From assembly GCF_003226535.1 (NCBI RefSeq), contig NZ_QKOB01000005.1:1-64000 (forward strand): a stretch of DNA of 64,000 nt, written 5' to 3'. Made by a program: the position numbers and the translations under genes. Source of the DNA: Meiothermus sp. Pnk-1. Lineage in GTDB: Bacteria > Deinococcota > Deinococci > Deinococcales > Thermaceae. Below are positions 19,997 to 30,622 of the stretch, piece by piece. Every line of letters starts with the position of its first letter. The stretch's first letter is position 1. The notes under the pieces are model-generated. The model saw only the letters and a program-made list of their open reading frames with translations, ran no database searches and was not told the origin of the DNA.

Positions 19997-20056
19997 ATGA
20001 GCATCCCCAAATACAAGCTCAAAAAGGTAGACGGTAACTTTTGCACCGAGGAATGA
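19997..20056 (+). other. Short truncated ORF (19 codons) with a good ribosome-binding site
   Basis: ATG at 19997 follows a GAGGAGG box and a TATACT element (19963-19968), but the frame (MSIPKYKLKKVDGNFCTEE) stops after 19 codons. It looks like the start of a gene cut off at this point, not a functional peptide; I do not recognise the parent. The 56 bases to hsdR contain no further gene. Confidence 0.35.
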
Positions 20057-20112
20057 TAGGTCCAGAGTTTTAATGGAATGCGTGGAATGTACAACGCTGT
20101 CACCGGAATGTC

Positions 20113-23094
20113 ATGAACAACAACGCTATGACTAAAGAAAGCGAAATCGAAAACGCCTTGCTTGAGAAGCTGCAAGCGCTCAAGTACACCTACCGCCCGG
20201 ACATCCGCGATCGCGAGGCGCTCGAGCGCAACTTCCGCGAGAAGTTCGAGGCGCTCAACAAGGTCCAGCTCACTGACGCCGAGTTCGCTCGCTTGCTCGA
20301 CGAGATCGTCAGCCCCGACGTGTTCGCCTGCGCGGAGCGGCTGCGTCACCGCAACACCTTTGAGCGCGAGGACGGCACACCGCTGCACTACCAGCTCGTC
20401 AATCTCAAAGATTGGTGCAAGAACGAGTTCGAGGTCGTCAGCCAGCTTCGCATCAACACCAGATCGAGCTTCCACCGCTACGACGTGATTTTGCTTGTCA
20501 ATGGCCTGCCGCTCGTGCAGATTGAGCTGAAATCCCTGGAAATCAGCCCTCGCCGGGCGATGCAGCAGATCGTGGACTACAAGCAAGACCCTGGAAACGG
20601 CTACACCAATACGCTGCTCTGCTTCATGCAGCTTTTCATCGTTAGCAACCGCTCGAACACTTGGTATTTTGCCAACAACAACGCTGAGCACTTCCGCTTC
20701 GATGCCGATGAGCGCTTCCTGCCGATTTACCAGTGGGCCACACGCGACAATAAGAAGGTGACGCACCTCGACGATTTCGCCGAGGCGTTTCTGGCCAAAT
20801 GCACGCTCGCCGAGATGCTCAGCCGCTACATGGTGCTGATCCAAACCGAGCGCAAGCTGATGATGATGCGCCCTTACCAGATCTATGCGGTCAAGGCGAT
20901 TGTGGACTGCATCCAGCAGAACCGCGGCAACGGCTACATCTGGCACACCACCGGCAGCGGCAAGACGCTCACCTCGTTTAAAGCCTCGACCCTGCTCAAG
21001 GACAACCCCGAAGTCGACAAGGTGCTGTTCGTCGTGGACCGCAAGGACCTCGACCGCCAGACCCGACAGGAATTCAACCGCTTCCAACCCGGTTGTGTGG
21101 AGGAAAACACCAACACCGAAACGCTGGTGCGCCGGCTGCTCTCCGACGACTACGCCGACAAGGTGATCGTCACCACCATCCAGAAGCTGGGGCTGGCGCT
21201 GGATGCCAACCACCGCAACGAATACCGCAAGCGCCTGGAGCCGCTGCGCGACAAGCGCATGGTGTTCATCTTCGACGAGTGCCATCGTTCCCAGTTCGGC
21301 GAGAACCACAAGGCCATCCGCGAGTTCTTTCCAAGCGCGCAGCTCTTCGGCTTCACCGGCACGCCGATCTTCGAGCAGAACGCCACCTACCGCACCATCG
21401 AGGGCACCGAGGCCCGCATGGTCACCACCGCCGACGTTTTTGGTCATCAGCTCCACGCCTACACCATCACCCACGCCATCGACGACGGCAACGTGCTGCG
21501 CTTCCACGTGGACTACTACAAGCCCGAAGGCGCACCCATCAAACCCGGCGAAACGCTGGCCAAGCAAAAGGTAGTTGAAGCAATCCTCGACAAGCACGAC
21601 CAGGCCACCAACCAACGCCGGTTCAATGCGCTCTTGGCCACCGCCAGCATCGACGACGCCATCGAGTATTACCACCTGTTCAAGGAAATCCAAGCCAAGC
21701 GCCAGGCAGAAGACGAAAACTTCCAGCCGCTCAACGTCGCCTGCGTCTTCTCGCCGCCCGCGGACGGCAACCGTGACATCGCCCAGCTTCAGGAAGACCT
21801 GCCCCAGGAACTTGCCGACAACCAGAAGGAGCCCAACCAGAAGAAGGAGGCGCTCAAAGCGATCATCGCCGACTACAACGCCCGTTACGGCACGAACTTC
21901 GACCTGTTCACCTTCGACCTTTACTATCAGGACATCCAGCAGCGCATCAAGGACCAGAAATACCCCAACAAGGATCTGCCGCACGAAAAGAAGATCGACC
22001 TCACTATCGTGGTGGACATGCTGCTTACCGGCTTCGATTCGCAGTACCTGAATACCCTCTATGTGGACAAGAACCTGAAGTATCACGGCCTCATCCAAGC
22101 TTTTTCGCGCACCAACCGCGTGCTCAACGACTCCAAGCCCTACGGCAACATCCTCGACTTCCGCGCCCAGAAGGACGCCGTGGACGAAGCCATCACCCTC
22201 TTTTCCGGCGAGGCCGGAGAGCGCGCCCGTGAGATCTGGCTGGTGGACCCGGCGCCCGTGGTAGCCAAGCGCTTCGTCGAAGCCGTGCGCGAACTGGAGA
22301 GCTTCATGCAGTCGCAGGGCCTCGAGTGCAAACCCGAGGAGGTGCCAAACCTGCGCGGTGACGAGGCCCGCGCCGCCTTCATCAACACCTTCAAGGAAGT
22401 GCAGCGGCTCAAAACCCAGCTCGACCAGTACACCGACCTGGATGACGCTACGCGCCAAACCATCGAACAGGCCATGCCGGAGGATACCTTGCGCGCCTTC
22501 CGCGGCGTCTATCTGGACGTGGCCACCCGACTCAAGGAAAAGCAGTACAAGACCGCCGACCCCAGCGATCCGGTGCAGCAGCTCGACTTCGAGTTTGTGC
22601 TCTTCGACTCGGCTTTGATCGACTACGACTACATCATGAAGCTCATCGCCCGCTTCAGCGCCAAGGGGCCGAAAAAGCAGAAGATGACCCGCGAGCAGCT
22701 TGTGGGGCTCCTTAGGAGTAACGCCAAGTTCCTCGACGAGCGCGAGGAGATCATCGAGTACGTGAACACCCTGAAGGAAGGCGAGGGCTTGAGTGAGGAG
22801 GAAATCCGCAAGGGCTACGAGCGCTTCAAGGCCGAGAAATACGCCCGCGAGCTCACCGCGATCGCCGAAAAGCACGGCCTCTCGCGCGACGCGCTGCAAA
22901 CCTTCCTGGACGGCATCCTGCACCGCATGATCTTCGACCCCGACGCGCTCACCGACCTGATGGCACCCTTGAATCTCGGCTGGAAGGCGCGGGCGCAGAA
23001 GGAGCTGGCGCTGATGGAGGACCTCACGCCACTACTCAAGAAGCTCGCCCAGGGCAAGGAGATTTCTGGTTTGGAAGTGTATGACCATGTCTGA
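20113..23094 (+). CDS. hsdR: Type I restriction enzyme, R subunit
   Basis: 993 residues, full length. The N-terminal PD-(D/E)xK nuclease region ends in NGLPLVQIELKSLE (E-x-K). The superfamily 2 translocase follows, with Walker A TTGSGKTLTS near residue 283, the Asp-Glu-Cys-His form of the DEAD box in FIFDECHRSQFG, the TGTPI motif and the late QAFSRTNR motif VI. With HsdM and HsdS it forms a restriction complex that cuts unmethylated DNA after translocation. Start at ATG 20113 or ATG 20128 (MTKESEIENAL). Overlaps hsdS by 14 bases or less. Composition differs from neighbours (few CTCGAG words), consistent with transfer. Confidence 0.96.
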   Translation: MNNNAMTKESEIENALLEKLQALKYTYRPDIRDREALERNFREKFEALNKVQLTDAEFARLLDEIVSPDVFACAERLRHRNTFEREDGTPLHYQLVNLKDWCKNEFEVVSQLRINTRSSFHRYDVILLVNGLPLVQIELKSLEISPRRAMQQIVDYKQDPGNGYTNTLLCFMQLFIVSNRSNTWYFANNNAEHFRFDADERFLPIYQWATRDNKKVTHLDDFAEAFLAKCTLAEMLSRYMVLIQTERKLMMMRPYQIYAVKAIVDCIQQNRGNGYIWHTTGSGKTLTSFKASTLLKDNPEVDKVLFVVDRKDLDRQTRQEFNRFQPGCVEENTNTETLVRRLLSDDYADKVIVTTIQKLGLALDANHRNEYRKRLEPLRDKRMVFIFDECHRSQFGENHKAIREFFPSAQLFGFTGTPIFEQNATYRTIEGTEARMVTTADVFGHQLHAYTITHAIDDGNVLRFHVDYYKPEGAPIKPGETLAKQKVVEAILDKHDQATNQRRFNALLATASIDDAIEYYHLFKEIQAKRQAEDENFQPLNVACVFSPPADGNRDIAQLQEDLPQELADNQKEPNQKKEALKAIIADYNARYGTNFDLFTFDLYYQDIQQRIKDQKYPNKDLPHEKKIDLTIVVDMLLTGFDSQYLNTLYVDKNLKYHGLIQAFSRTNRVLNDSKPYGNILDFRAQKDAVDEAITLFSGEAGERAREIWLVDPAPVVAKRFVEAVRELESFMQSQGLECKPEEVPNLRGDEARAAFINTFKEVQRLKTQLDQYTDLDDATRQTIEQAMPEDTLRAFRGVYLDVATRLKEKQYKTADPSDPVQQLDFEFVLFDSALIDYDYIMKLIARFSAKGPKKQKMTREQLVGLLRSNAKFLDEREEIIEYVNTLKEGEGLSEEEIRKGYERFKAEKYARELTAIAEKHGLSRDALQTFLDGILHRMIFDPDALTDLMAPLNLGWKARAQKELALMEDLTPLLKKLAQGKEISGLEVYDHV

Positions 23095-24310
23095 GAAGAA
23101 GAAAGGCGTCGTGCCCCGCCTGCGCTTCCCTGAGTTCCGCGATGCGGGGCCGTGGGAATTCCACTCTATCTCTGATTTTCTTACAGAAAGCCGTATTGAA
23201 GGCTCCAGCGGAGACACAGCCCGAAAGCTGACAGTTAAACTCTGGGGTAAAGGCGTGGTCAGGAAGGAAGAGTACTTGCCTGGCAGTGAGAATACTAAGT
23301 ATTACAAGCGGCGGGCAGGCCAATTTATTTACAGCAAGCTTGATTTTCTTAACAGCGCTTTCGGTATCGTGCCGCCAGAACTAGATGGTTATGAATCGAC
23401 GACTGACCTTCCAGCATTTGAGATTAGTCCCGATCTCGTCGCATCCTTCTTTCTCGAGTATGTGAAGCGACCAAATTTTTTTCGGAAATTCGGCGAACAA
23501 GCGGATGGAAGCCGAAAGGCCAAACGAATTCAAACAAACTATTTTTTGGCGCTGCCTGTTGTCGTTCCCGCGAAAAAAGAACAACAAAAAATCGCCGACT
23601 GTCTGTCGTCGCTCGATGAGCTGATCGAGCTGGAGGGCAAGAAGCTCGAGGCCCTCAAGCAGCACAAGAAGGGGCTGATGCAGCAGCTCTTCCCCCGCGA
23701 GGGCGAAACCACCCCCCGCCTGCGCTTTCCCGAGTTCCGCGATGCCGGGCCGTGGGAGGTGAAGCGGTTGGGGGAGGTGTTTCGTGAACGCTATGAGCGT
23801 GATGGTGTTGGCCTCGAATTGCTGTCCGTTACGATTTCGGACGGGGTTGTTCGCGCTTCAGATCTAGAACGCAGAAATACCGCAAGCGCCGATTTATCAA
23901 CTTACAAGAAGGTTTACCCGGGCGACATTGTTTACAACACGATGCGGATGTGGCAGGGAGCCAGTGGGGTTTCGCATTTCCATGGAATAGTTAGCCCTGC
24001 CTACACGGTGGTTACTCCGGAAGACAACCACAACTCAGTTTTTTGGGCCTATCATTTCAAGCTTTGGCATTCGATTGATAAGTTTGCTCGCTTCTCTCAA
24101 GGGTTAACCTCTGACACTTGGAATTTAAAATTTCCGGCATTCTCCGCCATTAAAATGGCGTTTCCTCGTGATCCAGAAGAACAACAAAAAATCGCCGACT
24201 GCCTGTCCTCGCTCGATGAGCTGATCGAGCTGGAGGGCAAGAAGCTCGAAGCTCTCAAGGCTCACAAGAAGGGGCTGATGCAGCAGCTTTTTCCGCAGGA
24301 GGTGGAGTGA
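23081..24310 (+). CDS. hsdS: Type I restriction specificity subunit
   Basis: 409 residues in two similar halves, each a target-recognition domain followed by a helical spacer. RLRFPEFRDAGPWE opens both halves (about residues 14 and 212). QQKIADCLSSLDELIELEGK with a following KKGLMQQLFP closes both. The duplicated segments are nearly identical at DNA level (about 23120 with 23717, and 23581 with 24181), whereas the recognition domains between them differ and are AT-richer. Such repeats favour recombination that swaps DNA specificity. Start is ATG 23081 or 23087, overlapping the hsdR end. Confidence 0.93.
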   Translation: MTMSEKKKGVVPRLRFPEFRDAGPWEFHSISDFLTESRIEGSSGDTARKLTVKLWGKGVVRKEEYLPGSENTKYYKRRAGQFIYSKLDFLNSAFGIVPPELDGYESTTDLPAFEISPDLVASFFLEYVKRPNFFRKFGEQADGSRKAKRIQTNYFLALPVVVPAKKEQQKIADCLSSLDELIELEGKKLEALKQHKKGLMQQLFPREGETTPRLRFPEFRDAGPWEVKRLGEVFRERYERDGVGLELLSVTISDGVVRASDLERRNTASADLSTYKKVYPGDIVYNTMRMWQGASGVSHFHGIVSPAYTVVTPEDNHNSVFWAYHFKLWHSIDKFARFSQGLTSDTWNLKFPAFSAIKMAFPRDPEEQQKIADCLSSLDELIELEGKKLEALKAHKKGLMQQLFPQEVE

Positions 24311-24313
24311 GCC

Positions 24314-25447
24314 ATGCCGGCGCAGGGCCACATCCAAACCTTTCCCGACCTCGATGCCCTAGCGCGACACCTGCGCAGCCTAGACAAGAAAACGGTGCTC
24401 ATTTTCGCCTATAACGGCACAGGCAAAACGCGGCTGTCGGTGCACTTCAAAGAGCTGGGCAAAGTGCGCAACGACGATGGCGAAGTGACCAGCCGCGACA
24501 CCCTCTACTTCAACGCCTTCACCGAGGACCTGTTCACCTGGGACAACGACCTGGAAAACGACCGTGAGCGGGTGCTGCGCATGAATACCGCCTCCCGGTT
24601 CTTCAGCGGCCTGGATGAGCTGGAGATGGAAAACCGTATCCGCCCGGTGTTGCATCGCTATTGCGATTTTGATTTTTCATTCGATTATGATAAGAGTGTC
24701 ATTAGCTTCTTTCGGGATGAGCGCGTACCTCAGGAAGATAGCAATTACAACACCATACGCCACGACCATATCAAGATTTCACGCGGCGAGGAAAACATCT
24801 TCATCTGGTGCTTCTTTCTCGCGGTGGCCGAGCTCGCCATCGCGGGGCAGGAAGCCTATGAATGGGTAAAGTACATCTACATCGACGATCCCATCTCATC
24901 GCTGGACGAAAACAACGCCATCGCCGTGGCCGCTCATTTGGCGAAGATGCTCAAGGGTCAAGACCGGGTCAAAGCCATCATCTCCTCGCATCACACACTG
25001 TTTTTCAACGTGTTGTGCAATGAAATGGATAGGGCGCAGCGTTATTTTCTTCGCAAGACCGAATCGGGCTACGAGTTGCAGAACACCAACGACACACCGC
25101 GCTTCTACCATGTGGCCATGCTCAAGGAGCTGCGCAAAGCGGCCGAATCCGGGCAACTGTACACTTACCACTTCAATATCCTGCGCAGCATCCTGGAGAA
25201 GACGGCGACCTTTCACGGCTTCAACCACTTCGGCGACATCATCAAACGCGATCCCGATGACGAGGATGGCCAGCTCCATGCGCGCTACGTAAACCTTTTG
25301 AGCCACGGTAATTATTCCCTGTTCGAGCCCGTTGAGATGCTGGAAGAAAACAAAGAGATCTTCCGCAAGATTCTCAATGATTTCATGAACAACTACCGCT
25401 TCAACCCGGAGCTTTTCCCTGAAGTGGCTGAGGAGTCAATCGCATGA
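24314..25447 (+). CDS. PrrC-like anticodon nuclease embedded in the hsd locus
   Basis: 377 residues, close to E. coli PrrC (396). Walker A AYNGTGKT (to residue 39), an ABC-like signature ISRGEENIF and Walker B/D-loop YIYIDDPISSLDENN mark the ABC/SMC-like NTPase half. The C-terminal region has R291-x3-E295 and H331 (NLLSHGN), the same R...E...H layout as the proposed PrrC tRNA-cleaving site. PrrC is held silent by its host type I complex and cleaves tRNA-Lys when a phage disables that complex. Position between hsdS (3-base gap) and hsdM (4-base overlap) matches that biology. tRNA target is unknown; RloC is ruled out by size and lack of a coiled-coil/zinc hook. Confidence 0.8.
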   Translation: MPAQGHIQTFPDLDALARHLRSLDKKTVLIFAYNGTGKTRLSVHFKELGKVRNDDGEVTSRDTLYFNAFTEDLFTWDNDLENDRERVLRMNTASRFFSGLDELEMENRIRPVLHRYCDFDFSFDYDKSVISFFRDERVPQEDSNYNTIRHDHIKISRGEENIFIWCFFLAVAELAIAGQEAYEWVKYIYIDDPISSLDENNAIAVAAHLAKMLKGQDRVKAIISSHHTLFFNVLCNEMDRAQRYFLRKTESGYELQNTNDTPRFYHVAMLKELRKAAESGQLYTYHFNILRSILEKTATFHGFNHFGDIIKRDPDDEDGQLHARYVNLLSHGNYSLFEPVEMLEENKEIFRKILNDFMNNYRFNPELFPEVAEESIA

Positions 25448-27081
25448 CCGAACAAGACCAAATCCGTTTGGGCAAAGTACTTTGGGCTATTGCCGACGAA
25501 CTTCGCGGCGCGATGAACGCCGACGACTTTCGCGACTACATGCTGTCGTTTTTGTTTCTGCGCTACCTCTCGGACAACTACGAAGAGGCCGCCAGGCGGG
25601 AGCTGGGCGATGACTGGCCGAAACTTCCAGAAGGTGAGCGCCGCTCGCCGCTCGCGGTGTGGTACGAGCAGAACCCGGATGACATCGCGATGTTCGAGGA
25701 CCAGATGCGCCGCAAGGTGCACTACGTCATCAAGCCCGAATACCTGTGGAGCAGCATCGCCGAAATGGCGCGCACGCAGGATGCGGAACTGCTTCACACC
25801 CTGCAGAAGGGCTTCAAGTTCATCGAGAACGAATCCTTCGCCAGCAGCTTCCAGGGGCTGTTCTCGGAAATCAACCTGGATTCCGACAAGCTCGGCAAGA
25901 ACTACCCGCAGCGCAATGCGCGGCTGTGCAAGATCATCCAGCGGATCAACGAAGGATTGGCCGAGTTTCCGCGCGAGCGCGATTTGTTAGGCGACGCCTA
26001 CGAGTACCTGATCGGCCAGTTTGCCGCAGGCTCCGGCAAGAAGGCGGGCGAGTTCTACACGCCGCAACAGATCTCCAGCATACTTTCGGGAATCGTGTCG
26101 TTGGATGCGCAGGACCCCAAGAGTGGCAAGCGCGAGAGGCTCGGCAGGGTGCTGGATTTCGCCTGCGGCTCGGGTTCTTTGCTCTTAAATGTGTGGCGCC
26201 GGATGGGTCGGCACGGCGTGGGCAAGCTCTACGGCCAGGAAAAGAACATCACCACCTACAACCTGGCGCGCATGAACATGCTGCTGCATGGCCTCAAGGA
26301 CACGGAGTTTGAGATCTTTCACGGCGATTCCCTGCTGAACGAATGGCCGCTGTTGCGTGAGGAAAACCCGGCCAAGAAGATCGAGTTTGACGCCGTGGTC
26401 GCCAATCCGCCCTTTAGCTACCGTTGGGACCCCAGCGAGGAACTGGCCGAAGACTTCCGCTTCAAAGACTATGGCTTGGCGCCCAAATCTGCCGCCGACT
26501 TCGCCTTCTTGCTGCACGGCTTCCATTTCCTGCATCGCGAGGGTACCATGGCCATTATCCTGCCGCACGGCGTGCTGTTTCGCGGTAACGCGGAGGCCAA
26601 AATCCGCAGGAAGCTGCTCAAAGACGGCAACATCGATACGGTGATCGGGCTGGCGCCGAATCTTTTCTACTCGACCGGCATCCCGGTGTGCATCCTGGTG
26701 CTGAAGAAATGCAAGAAGTTCGACGATGTGCTCTTCATCAACGCCGCCGAGCTCTACGAGAAGGGCAAACGCCAGAACCGCCTGCTGCCCGAGCATATCG
26801 ACAAGATCGTTGAAACCTACCAATACCGCCGCGAGGTGAGGGAGGAGTTACCAAACGGAGCCATCTTCGCATCGCGCCGCGTGAGCATGGAGGAGATCGA
26901 AGAGAACGATTTCAACCTGAACATCACGCGCTATGTAAGTACTGCCGCGTCGGATGAAGAGGTGGACTTGAAAGGCGTGGGCGACGAGTTGCGTGCTCTG
27001 ACTGAGAAGATAGCGCAGGCTACCCGCAAGCACAATCAGTTTTTGATCGAGCTTGGCTTGCCGGGACTTCCTGAGGGGTAG
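25444..27081 (+). CDS. hsdM: Type I DNA methyltransferase, M subunit
   Basis: 545 residues. AdoMet motif I VLDFACGSGSLLLNV and catalytic motif IV NPPF mark an N6-adenine methylase. The N-terminal helical domain (DFRDYMLSFLFLRYLSDNY) is typical of HsdM. It methylates the recognition site so that the host is spared. The ATGA overlap with the PrrC-like gene suggests coupled translation, so nuclease and methylase are made together. Gene order hsdR-hsdS-prrC-hsdM differs from the E. coli prr locus (M-S-prrC-R). Confidence 0.96.
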   Translation: MTEQDQIRLGKVLWAIADELRGAMNADDFRDYMLSFLFLRYLSDNYEEAARRELGDDWPKLPEGERRSPLAVWYEQNPDDIAMFEDQMRRKVHYVIKPEYLWSSIAEMARTQDAELLHTLQKGFKFIENESFASSFQGLFSEINLDSDKLGKNYPQRNARLCKIIQRINEGLAEFPRERDLLGDAYEYLIGQFAAGSGKKAGEFYTPQQISSILSGIVSLDAQDPKSGKRERLGRVLDFACGSGSLLLNVWRRMGRHGVGKLYGQEKNITTYNLARMNMLLHGLKDTEFEIFHGDSLLNEWPLLREENPAKKIEFDAVVANPPFSYRWDPSEELAEDFRFKDYGLAPKSAADFAFLLHGFHFLHREGTMAIILPHGVLFRGNAEAKIRRKLLKDGNIDTVIGLAPNLFYSTGIPVCILVLKKCKKFDDVLFINAAELYEKGKRQNRLLPEHIDKIVETYQYRREVREELPNGAIFASRRVSMEEIEENDFNLNITRYVSTAASDEEVDLKGVGDELRALTEKIAQATRKHNQFLIELGLPGLPEG

Positions 27082-27587: not shown

Positions 27588-27893
27588 ATGACCCCACGAA
27601 CCTTAAGCCGCGACGACATCCTCGCCGAACTACGACGCCTCAAGCCGGAGCTTTCGCGTCGCTACGGGGTGAACCGCATGGCGCTTTTTGGATCCTTTGC
27701 CAAAGGCGAAGCGCGCCCCGGCAGCGACATCGACGTCGTCGTCGAGCTGGATGAACCGGATCTCTTTGCCCTGGTCCACATCAAGGAAGAGCTGGAATCG
27801 GCGTTGCGGTGCTCGGTCGATATCATTCCCTACACCGAGCTGATGAACGGCTTCCTCAAAGCGCGCATCCAGCGCGAGGCTGTGTATGTCTGA
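27588..27893 (+). CDS. mntA: MntA-type nucleotidyltransferase antitoxin
   Basis: 101 residues, a minimal nucleotidyltransferase with GSFAKGEARPGSDIDVVVEL, the G-S-x9-D-x-D active site. MntA proteins neutralise the HEPN toxin HepT, in studied cases by adding AMP to it. GGAGA lies eight bases before the ATG. It overlaps hepT by 8 bases, so the two are made together. Confidence 0.88.
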   Translation: MTPRTLSRDDILAELRRLKPELSRRYGVNRMALFGSFAKGEARPGSDIDVVVELDEPDLFALVHIKEELESALRCSVDIIPYTELMNGFLKARIQREAVYV

Positions 27894-28256
27894 TCGGGAG
27901 TTGGTCAGGGCAGTCATCGCGCAGATCCTGACCGCGATTGGCCGCATCGAGCGCCGGGCCGCGCGCGTCACCCAACCCAGCGACTTTGTCTCGAGCGATA
28001 CCGGACTCGACATGCTCGATGCCATCGCCATGATGCTGATTGCCATCGGCGAGAACTGCAAAAACCTGGACAAAATCACCGGCGGTACGCTCTTGGCCCG
28101 TTACCCCGATGTGGATTGGAAAGGGGTTAAGGGGATGCGCGACGTCATCAGCCACCACTACTTCGACATCAGCCCCGAGATCGTTTTCTCCGTTTGCCGC
28201 AAGCAGATCCCGCTGCTTCGGAGGACCTTCGAGGCGATGCTCACGGACCTCGACTC

Positions 28257-28260
<4 letters not shown>
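27886..28260 (+). CDS. hepT: HepT-type HEPN ribonuclease toxin
   Basis: 124 residues, all-helical HEPN domain with the catalytic R-x4-H-x-Y motif as RDVISHHYF near residue 86-94. HepT toxins cleave RNA, tRNA in known examples. Partner of the preceding MntA. Both genes appear intact. The pair sits in a nest of pseudogenes between two copies of the same helicase fragment, suggesting it arrived as a cassette. Confidence 0.88.
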
Positions 28261-29756
<1,496 letters not shown>

Positions 29757-29830: not shown

Positions 29831-29944
29831 TAGAGGTGACGATATAACTCAGCGGCTGGGGGCGCGCTCTGGAGTTGATGCCTTGCGCGCCGAAAGGCTT
29901 TTGGACTCAACCCCAAGCCGTAAACTCGAAGCCAGGGGGTGAGT

Positions 29945-30187
29945 ATGGCCAGCTTGATTATTCGAAACCTCGACGAAACCACAAAGCAAGCCTTGCGGCT
30001 TCGCGCGGCGCAGCACGGCGTTTCGATGGAAGAGGAGGCGCGCCGCATCTTGCGGGCGGCGTTGGGAGTTACCCGCTATCCCGCGCGGCTTGGCAGCCAC
30101 CTGCGCGACCGTTTTCAGGCAGTTGCCGATGAGGATTTCCACCTTCCCGAACGGCACAGGCCACGCAAACCGCCGCAACTGGGATGA
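29945..30187 (+). CDS. FitA-like ribbon-helix-helix antitoxin
   Basis: 80 residues. The N-terminal MASLIIRNLDETTKQALRLRAAQHG is a ribbon-helix-helix DNA-binding domain, and ARRILRAAL the following helix, as in FitA/VapB antitoxins. A GGGGG box precedes the ATG at 29945. It is followed after six bases by its PIN-domain partner and probably represses the pair's promoter. Confidence 0.82.
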   Translation: MASLIIRNLDETTKQALRLRAAQHGVSMEEEARRILRAALGVTRYPARLGSHLRDRFQAVADEDFHLPERHRPRKPPQLG

Positions 30188-30193
30188 GCTCGC

Positions 30194-30622
30194 ATGATTT
30201 TGCTCGATACCAACGTGCTCTCCGAGTTCATGCGACCGCAGCCCTCGGCGCAAGTGGTTGCCTGGCTGGATGAGCAGCCCGCTGAAACGGTATGGGTCAG
30301 CGCCATCAGCCTCGCCGAGATTGAGCTGGGTCTGGCGCTCATGCCGAAAGACAAGCGGCAAATGGCACTGGCGCAAGCAGCTCAGGCGATGTTCGACGAA
30401 GATTTTGCTGGTCGCTGCTTGCCGTTCGATGAGGTCGCCGCTGTCCACTACGCGCGCATCGTAGCGGCGCGCATGTAAGCAGGCCGACCGATCAGCCTGG
30501 AGGATGCCCAAATCGCCGCGATCGCGCTGGCGCACGGCATGGTGTTGGCTACGCGCAACACCGCCGACTTTGAACGGATCGAGGGGCTTGATCTGGTCAA
30601 TCCTTGGGCAGGTGGTGCCTGA
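30194..30622 (+). pseudogene. FitB/VapC PIN-domain toxin with an in-frame stop
   Basis: The frame encodes a PIN ribonuclease of about 142 residues. Acidic residues are visible in LLDTNVLSE, SLAEIELG, EDAQIAAI and NTADFERI. A TAA codon at 30476-30478, after ARM, interrupts it; the same frame then continues AGRPISLEDAQ to a natural stop at 30620-30622 (LVNPWAGGA). The shortened product of 94 residues lacks two of the four catalytic acids and should be inactive. The antitoxin gene is intact. A single base change explains the break, so it looks recent. Confidence 0.8.

Follow-up and report, generated by a model that had tools for sequence, protein, structure and literature searches.

In Escherichia coli, the anticodon nuclease PrrC is encoded within EcoprrI, a type I restriction operon with the gene order hsdM-hsdS-prrC-hsdR, and residue Asp287 of the protein contacts the modified wobble base of tRNA-Lys (PMC3014915). 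The E. coli core anticodon nuclease (ACNase) is very labile: at 30 C its half-life is less than 1 minute (PMC3014915). PrrC proteins have a size range of 341-416 aa (PMC2610378). A second system, PrrC170 of Klebsiella quasipneumoniae, was cloned as HsdR, HsdS, PrrC and HsdM, from 300 nt before hsdR; PrrC170 shares 35% identity with EcoPrrC. The system protects against T1 and T7, its toxin halts growth, and the specific target, tRNA-Lys, was identified by tRNA sequencing (Nature Communications 2024, phage tRNA paper, PMC11555353). RloC proteins are larger, at 658-897 aa, carry a coiled-coil/CXXC zinc hook and are seldom linked to restriction-modification (R-M) genes (PMC2610378).

Here we compare these systems with a gene found in a stretch of DNA of 64,000 nucleotides, which we refer to in its entirety as the window. 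A sequence-only reading had described the gene as encoding a nuclease of PrrC size, with ABC-like NTPase motifs and an R-x3-E...H layout, placed inside a type I restriction operon of a thermophile.

A full-length PrrC-family protein

The PrrC identity and size proposed for this gene were borne out. At 377 aa the predicted protein falls inside the published PrrC range, and a search with the PADLOC PrrC model (PDLC02360) returned E=1.2e-139 and 463 bits, a level comparable to the 490 bits that the same model gives on E. coli PrrC. As the E. coli reference we used a database copy (locus L082, CP057689) of 396 aa, whose operon shows the hsdM-hsdS-prrC-hsdR order. The two proteins are 34% identical over 367 columns (BLASTP), and a profile of the clade that holds the window protein matched the profile of the E. 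coli clade with a probability of 100 and E=5.7e-75 (hhalign). Judged by its sequence, the gene is a genuine and ordinary member of the PrrC family, from a less-studied branch of a known family.

An alignment of 130 full-length relatives, made with MAFFT, was used to place the conserved motifs of the protein (Table 1). All 130 relatives keep Lys38 and Thr39 of Walker A, D191-D192-P193 and D198 of the Walker B/D-loop region, the linchpin His226, and R291, E295 and H331, confirming both the NTPase motifs and the R-x3-E...H layout that had been read from the sequence. The last three residues, arranged as R291-S-I-L-E295 followed by 35 residues and then H331, line up with the catalytic triad R320, E324 and H356 of E. 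coli PrrC, by MAFFT as well as by profile-profile alignment. Since they are invariant among the relatives, the R-x3-E...H arrangement is genuine and cannot be put down to chance. The NAFTEDLFxWDNDL block of the PrrC N-domain is kept in clades A and B (defined below), and the conserved block at residues 67-80 of the window protein probably corresponds to the published 15-residue 'PrrC box'.

Table 1 Coordinates of prrC, its motifs and the neighbouring restriction genes in the window.
Feature	Residues	Position	Strand	Description or basis
hsdR		20113..23094	+	993 aa; Pfam EcoR124_C 239 bits; NCBIfam hsdR over cut-off; type IC-like
hsdS		23081..24310	+	409 aa; Pfam Methylase_S, PADLOC Specificity_I
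prrC		24314..25447	+	377 aa, ATG to TGA, intact; predicted PrrC-family anticodon nuclease of clade B
Walker A, AYNGTGKTRLS	32-42	24407..24439	+	conserved block in 130 relatives
Conserved block, NAFTEDLFTWDNDL	67-80	24512..24553	+	alignment of 130 relatives
ABC signature, K-I-S-R-G-E-E	154-160	24773..24793	+	aligns with E. coli KLSKGEE
Walker B / D-loop, YIYIDDPISSLD	187-198	24872..24907	+	alignment of 130 relatives
H-loop SSHH, linchpin His226		24983..24994	+	H226 in 130/130
Counterpart of the E. coli PrrC tRNA-recognition segment, NTNDTPRFYH	257-266	25082..25111	+	profile alignment
Arg291, catalytic by homology (E. coli Arg320)	291	25184..25186	+	130/130
Glu295, catalytic by homology (E. coli Glu324)	295	25196..25198	+	130/130
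Arg324, HEPN-type R-x6-H partner of His331	324	25283..25285	+	19/19 in clade A, 101/101 in clade B
His331, catalytic by homology (E. coli His356)	331	25304..25306	+	130/130
hsdM		25444..27081	+	545 aa; NCBIfam hsdM over cut-off

In an AlphaFold model of the window protein (pLDDT 85.8), the N-domain adopts an ABC/Rad50-like NTPase fold, and a Foldseek search with the full model returned Rad50, SMC and ABC ATPases at low TM; a viral structure library held nothing closer to the full model. In the modelled C-domain, which is helical, R291 and E295 lie on the same helix, and H331 sits where the following long helix ends. R324-x6-H331 fits the R-x4-6-H motif of the HEPN superfamily; superimposition of the RNase domain model on the HEPN structure 4nqf gave a TM of 0.41, a match that is not significant, and the ACNase domain model alone had no significant match among solved structures, HEPN proteins being among the insignificant ones. 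A PDB copy was searched by sequence with three queries, namely the window protein, E. coli PrrC and a profile built from 53 members, and no solved PrrC was found. For this reason, and because the E. coli core ACNase is so labile, it would be of use to have a stable homologue from a thermophile, in agreement with the earlier view of the gene as a potential structural model.

The restriction operon around prrC

The gene lies, as had been noted, between hsdS and hsdM, in a type I operon ordered hsdR-hsdS-prrC-hsdM, with each of the hsd genes at full length and matched by known models. The EcoR124_C domain of hsdR, together with the hsdS and hsdM genes that flank prrC, links the window protein to a type IC R-M system. 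The proposed overlap of stops and starts held for one of the two prrC junctions: the prrC stop and the hsdM start share an ATGA overlap, an ending of prrC also seen in 73 of 100 clade-B relatives, but hsdS and prrC are separated by 3 bp, with a Shine-Dalgarno-like AGGAGG ahead of the prrC ATG. The hsdR and hsdS genes overlap too. A promoter scan of the operon gave a yield no higher than in shuffled sequences.

The arrangement had also been said to match the E. coli system, which is correct in so far as both have prrC immediately after hsdS within a type I operon, and both proteins combine an ABC-NTPase with an R-E-H RNase domain and have an Asp at the wobble-contact position. The gene order, however, is R-S-prrC-M in the window and M-S-prrC-R in E. 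coli, so that prrC overlaps hsdM in the former and hsdR in EcoprrI, and the HsdM and HsdR proteins of the two operons are only ~35% identical. Since PrrC170 does not have the E. coli order, that order is a trait of the prototype and not one that defines the family.

Further modules lie downstream. Directly after hsdM, at 27588-28260, is a pair formed by an MntA-like nucleotidyltransferase and a HepT-like RNase, a second RNase-based module beside prrC. Two overlapping frames at 28377-29756 have the appearance of one frameshifted gene remnant and gave no Pfam, NCBIfam or PADLOC match, and the region 29939-30478 codes for a FitA-like antitoxin, behind which lies a PIN toxin frame (30194-30478) that spans just 94 aa and looks truncated or frameshifted.

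Clades and gene order in the PrrC family

PrrC proteins were found to form three clades: clade A, which includes E. coli PrrC, clade B, which includes the window protein, and a divergent clade C, mostly from Bacteroidota. In a set extended by further genomes, the M-S-prrC-R layout, in which prrC is preceded by hsdS and followed by hsdR, was present in 17 of 19 clade-A loci. The R-S-prrC-M layout, in which hsdS precedes and hsdM follows, was present in 89 of 100 clade-B loci and in all ten of clade C. The remaining 11 clade-B loci have one neighbour missing from the locus and none has an alternative gene order; hsd genes are present in every clade-B locus. Among the 80 closest relatives in genome contigs, which come from many phyla including archaea, the operon layout of the window was seen wherever both neighbours are visible. 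A maximum-likelihood tree of 77 proteins places each clade on one side of a branch, with a single change of layout. The HsdM and HsdR proteins fall into one lineage that accompanies clade-A PrrCs and another that accompanies clades B and C and, as far as these sequences tell, PrrC is co-inherited with one lineage of HsdM/HsdR. Some operons of the same type (L212) are missing PrrC, which is therefore an optional module.

The clade-C proteins (L103 and L168-L176, nine of the ten from Bacteroidota genomes) share with the window the R-E-H residues, R-S-x-M operons and the same HsdM lineage, but are 30-34% identical to the window protein, lack the Thr-Pro or Asp-Ser motif discussed below, and keep the HEPN-type Arg in just two of ten cases. 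PrrC170 probably belongs to clade B, given its gene list and order and its identity to EcoPrrC; it is likened to the window protein by the shared gene set and by this identity (35% for PrrC170 and 34% for the window). Defence and tRNA-Lys targeting by PrrC170 are experimental results, whereas for the window protein they are argued from homology. Clade B is widespread, and probably has one experimentally tested member already.

Host and origin of the operon

The RpoB protein of the host scores highest with Thermus RNA polymerases, at about 1790 bits, and the next match reaches 1184. The host is therefore Thermaceae-like and probably thermophilic, in keeping with the thermophile of the earlier reading. 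PrrC is present in one of 111 genomes of the host phylum, that of the window, the most similar other HsdM of the phylum shares 42% identity, and GC drops to 53-61% over the operon (20000-27000) from 65-75% in both flanks. Together these data indicate that the operon was horizontally acquired. The nearest PrrC relatives, at 79% identity in a Lysobacteraceae MAG and 76% in others, are not all from thermophiles, and the thermostability of the window protein is therefore not to be assumed. No relative was found in 50,697 phage records.

A proposed mechanism and its alternatives

Very probably, the window protein is a PrrC anticodon nuclease of the R-S-prrC-M branch and was gained together with the entire type I restriction operon, its suicide RNase mode being extrapolated from E. 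coli PrrC and PrrC170. At the level of sequence, the ABC-NTPase N-domain is intact, the R-E-H residues are present and the operon is intact. If the protein behaves as those two do, it would be kept silent inside the HsdR/M/S complex until a phage anti-restriction factor disturbs this complex on DNA, whereupon NTP hydrolysis by the N-domain would free the C-terminal RNase. The anticodon loop of one of the host tRNAs, most likely that of tRNA-Lys(UUU), would then be cut by the freed RNase, leaving a cyclic-phosphate end, and the cut would stop translation and abort the infection. Both tRNA cleavage and silencing by HsdMS are likely by analogy with E. coli PrrC (PMC3014915) and PrrC170 (PMC11555353).

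The choice of target turns on the recognition segment, which reads G-D-S-N in E. coli PrrC and N-D-T-P in the window. In the profile alignment, D260 of the window protein falls on E. coli Asp287; T258, which a first alignment had suggested as the counterpart, was rejected, since D260 is favoured both by the profile alignment and by those clade-A proteins that carry T-D-S-P or N-D-S-P. Apart from D260, the window segment diverges from clade A, in which Asp occupies position 287 in 17 of 19 proteins and Ser position 288 in 18 of 19. A Thr-Pro motif is found in 99 of 101 clade-B members, the two others having D-S-P, and the residue that precedes it is D in 52 of the 99, K in 14 and E in 11, with N, Q, A, S and H among the rest. 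It is this shift, from a conserved Asp-Ser to Thr-Pro after a variable residue, that could speak for a PrrC-family RNase with the same regulation and a different natural target, be it another tRNA or a tRNA-Lys with a different wobble modification; the recognition sequence of PrrC varies, and its substrates may vary accordingly (T4 review, PMC3014915). We regard this as quite unlikely, since PrrC170 shares the gene set, has a comparable identity to EcoPrrC and targets tRNA-Lys, and since the Asp is retained at the site in the window protein. The host has a tRNA-Lys(UUU) with the loop CUUUUAA, plus a tRNA-Lys(CUU), and our best guess, by analogy, is that tRNA-Lys(UUU) would be the target.

Two further readings question the identity or the activity of the protein. 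RloC, of which the Geobacillus kaustophilus protein is the prototype, also joins an ABC-NTPase to a C-terminal R-x3-E...H RNase, and the Rad50-like NTPase fold of the window protein and its weak matches to PDC-S06, models whose matches lie at the ends of AAA_13 proteins of ~730 aa, might suggest that it is an ABC-RNase, RloC-like or otherwise, which responds to DNA breaks and not to the state of a restriction enzyme. RloC is, however, twice as long, with a zinc-hook/coiled-coil insert, and its rare linkage to R-M genes differs from the constant presence of hsd genes in clade B; the PADLOC PrrC score, moreover, lies 400 bits above that of PDC-S06. RloC identity was rejected on the grounds of size and of the missing CXXC zinc hook, and a break-sensing function of this kind seems extremely unlikely. 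It is also very unlikely that prrC is an inactive gene in decay, carried along as a passenger. The operon is of foreign origin, and genes downstream of it (the 28377-29756 remnant and the PIN toxin at 30194-30478) appear broken, but prrC itself is full length, with every catalytic residue, AGGAGG before its ATG and a translational overlap with hsdM, and hsdR, hsdS and hsdM are intact. We therefore retain the reading of the window protein as an operon-borne anticodon nuclease.

The split between clades offers a natural comparison, the same enzyme with another operon partner, for asking which Hsd subunit silences PrrC. That clades B and C might be separate functional types, coupled to HsdM and not to HsdR, triggered by anti-restriction factors other than Stp, and with a tRNA or wobble-modification preference shifted by the residue before Thr-Pro, we consider unlikely. 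Clade-B operons are present in a K. quasipneumoniae plasmid record, whose PrrC homologue (L188) has 60% identity with the window protein, and in E. coli plasmid and chromosome records. In these E. coli and Klebsiella clade-B operons (L083, L091 and L188), genes for a TrlF-family ATPase and for a protein with an RNA-binding domain were observed between hsdR and hsdS.
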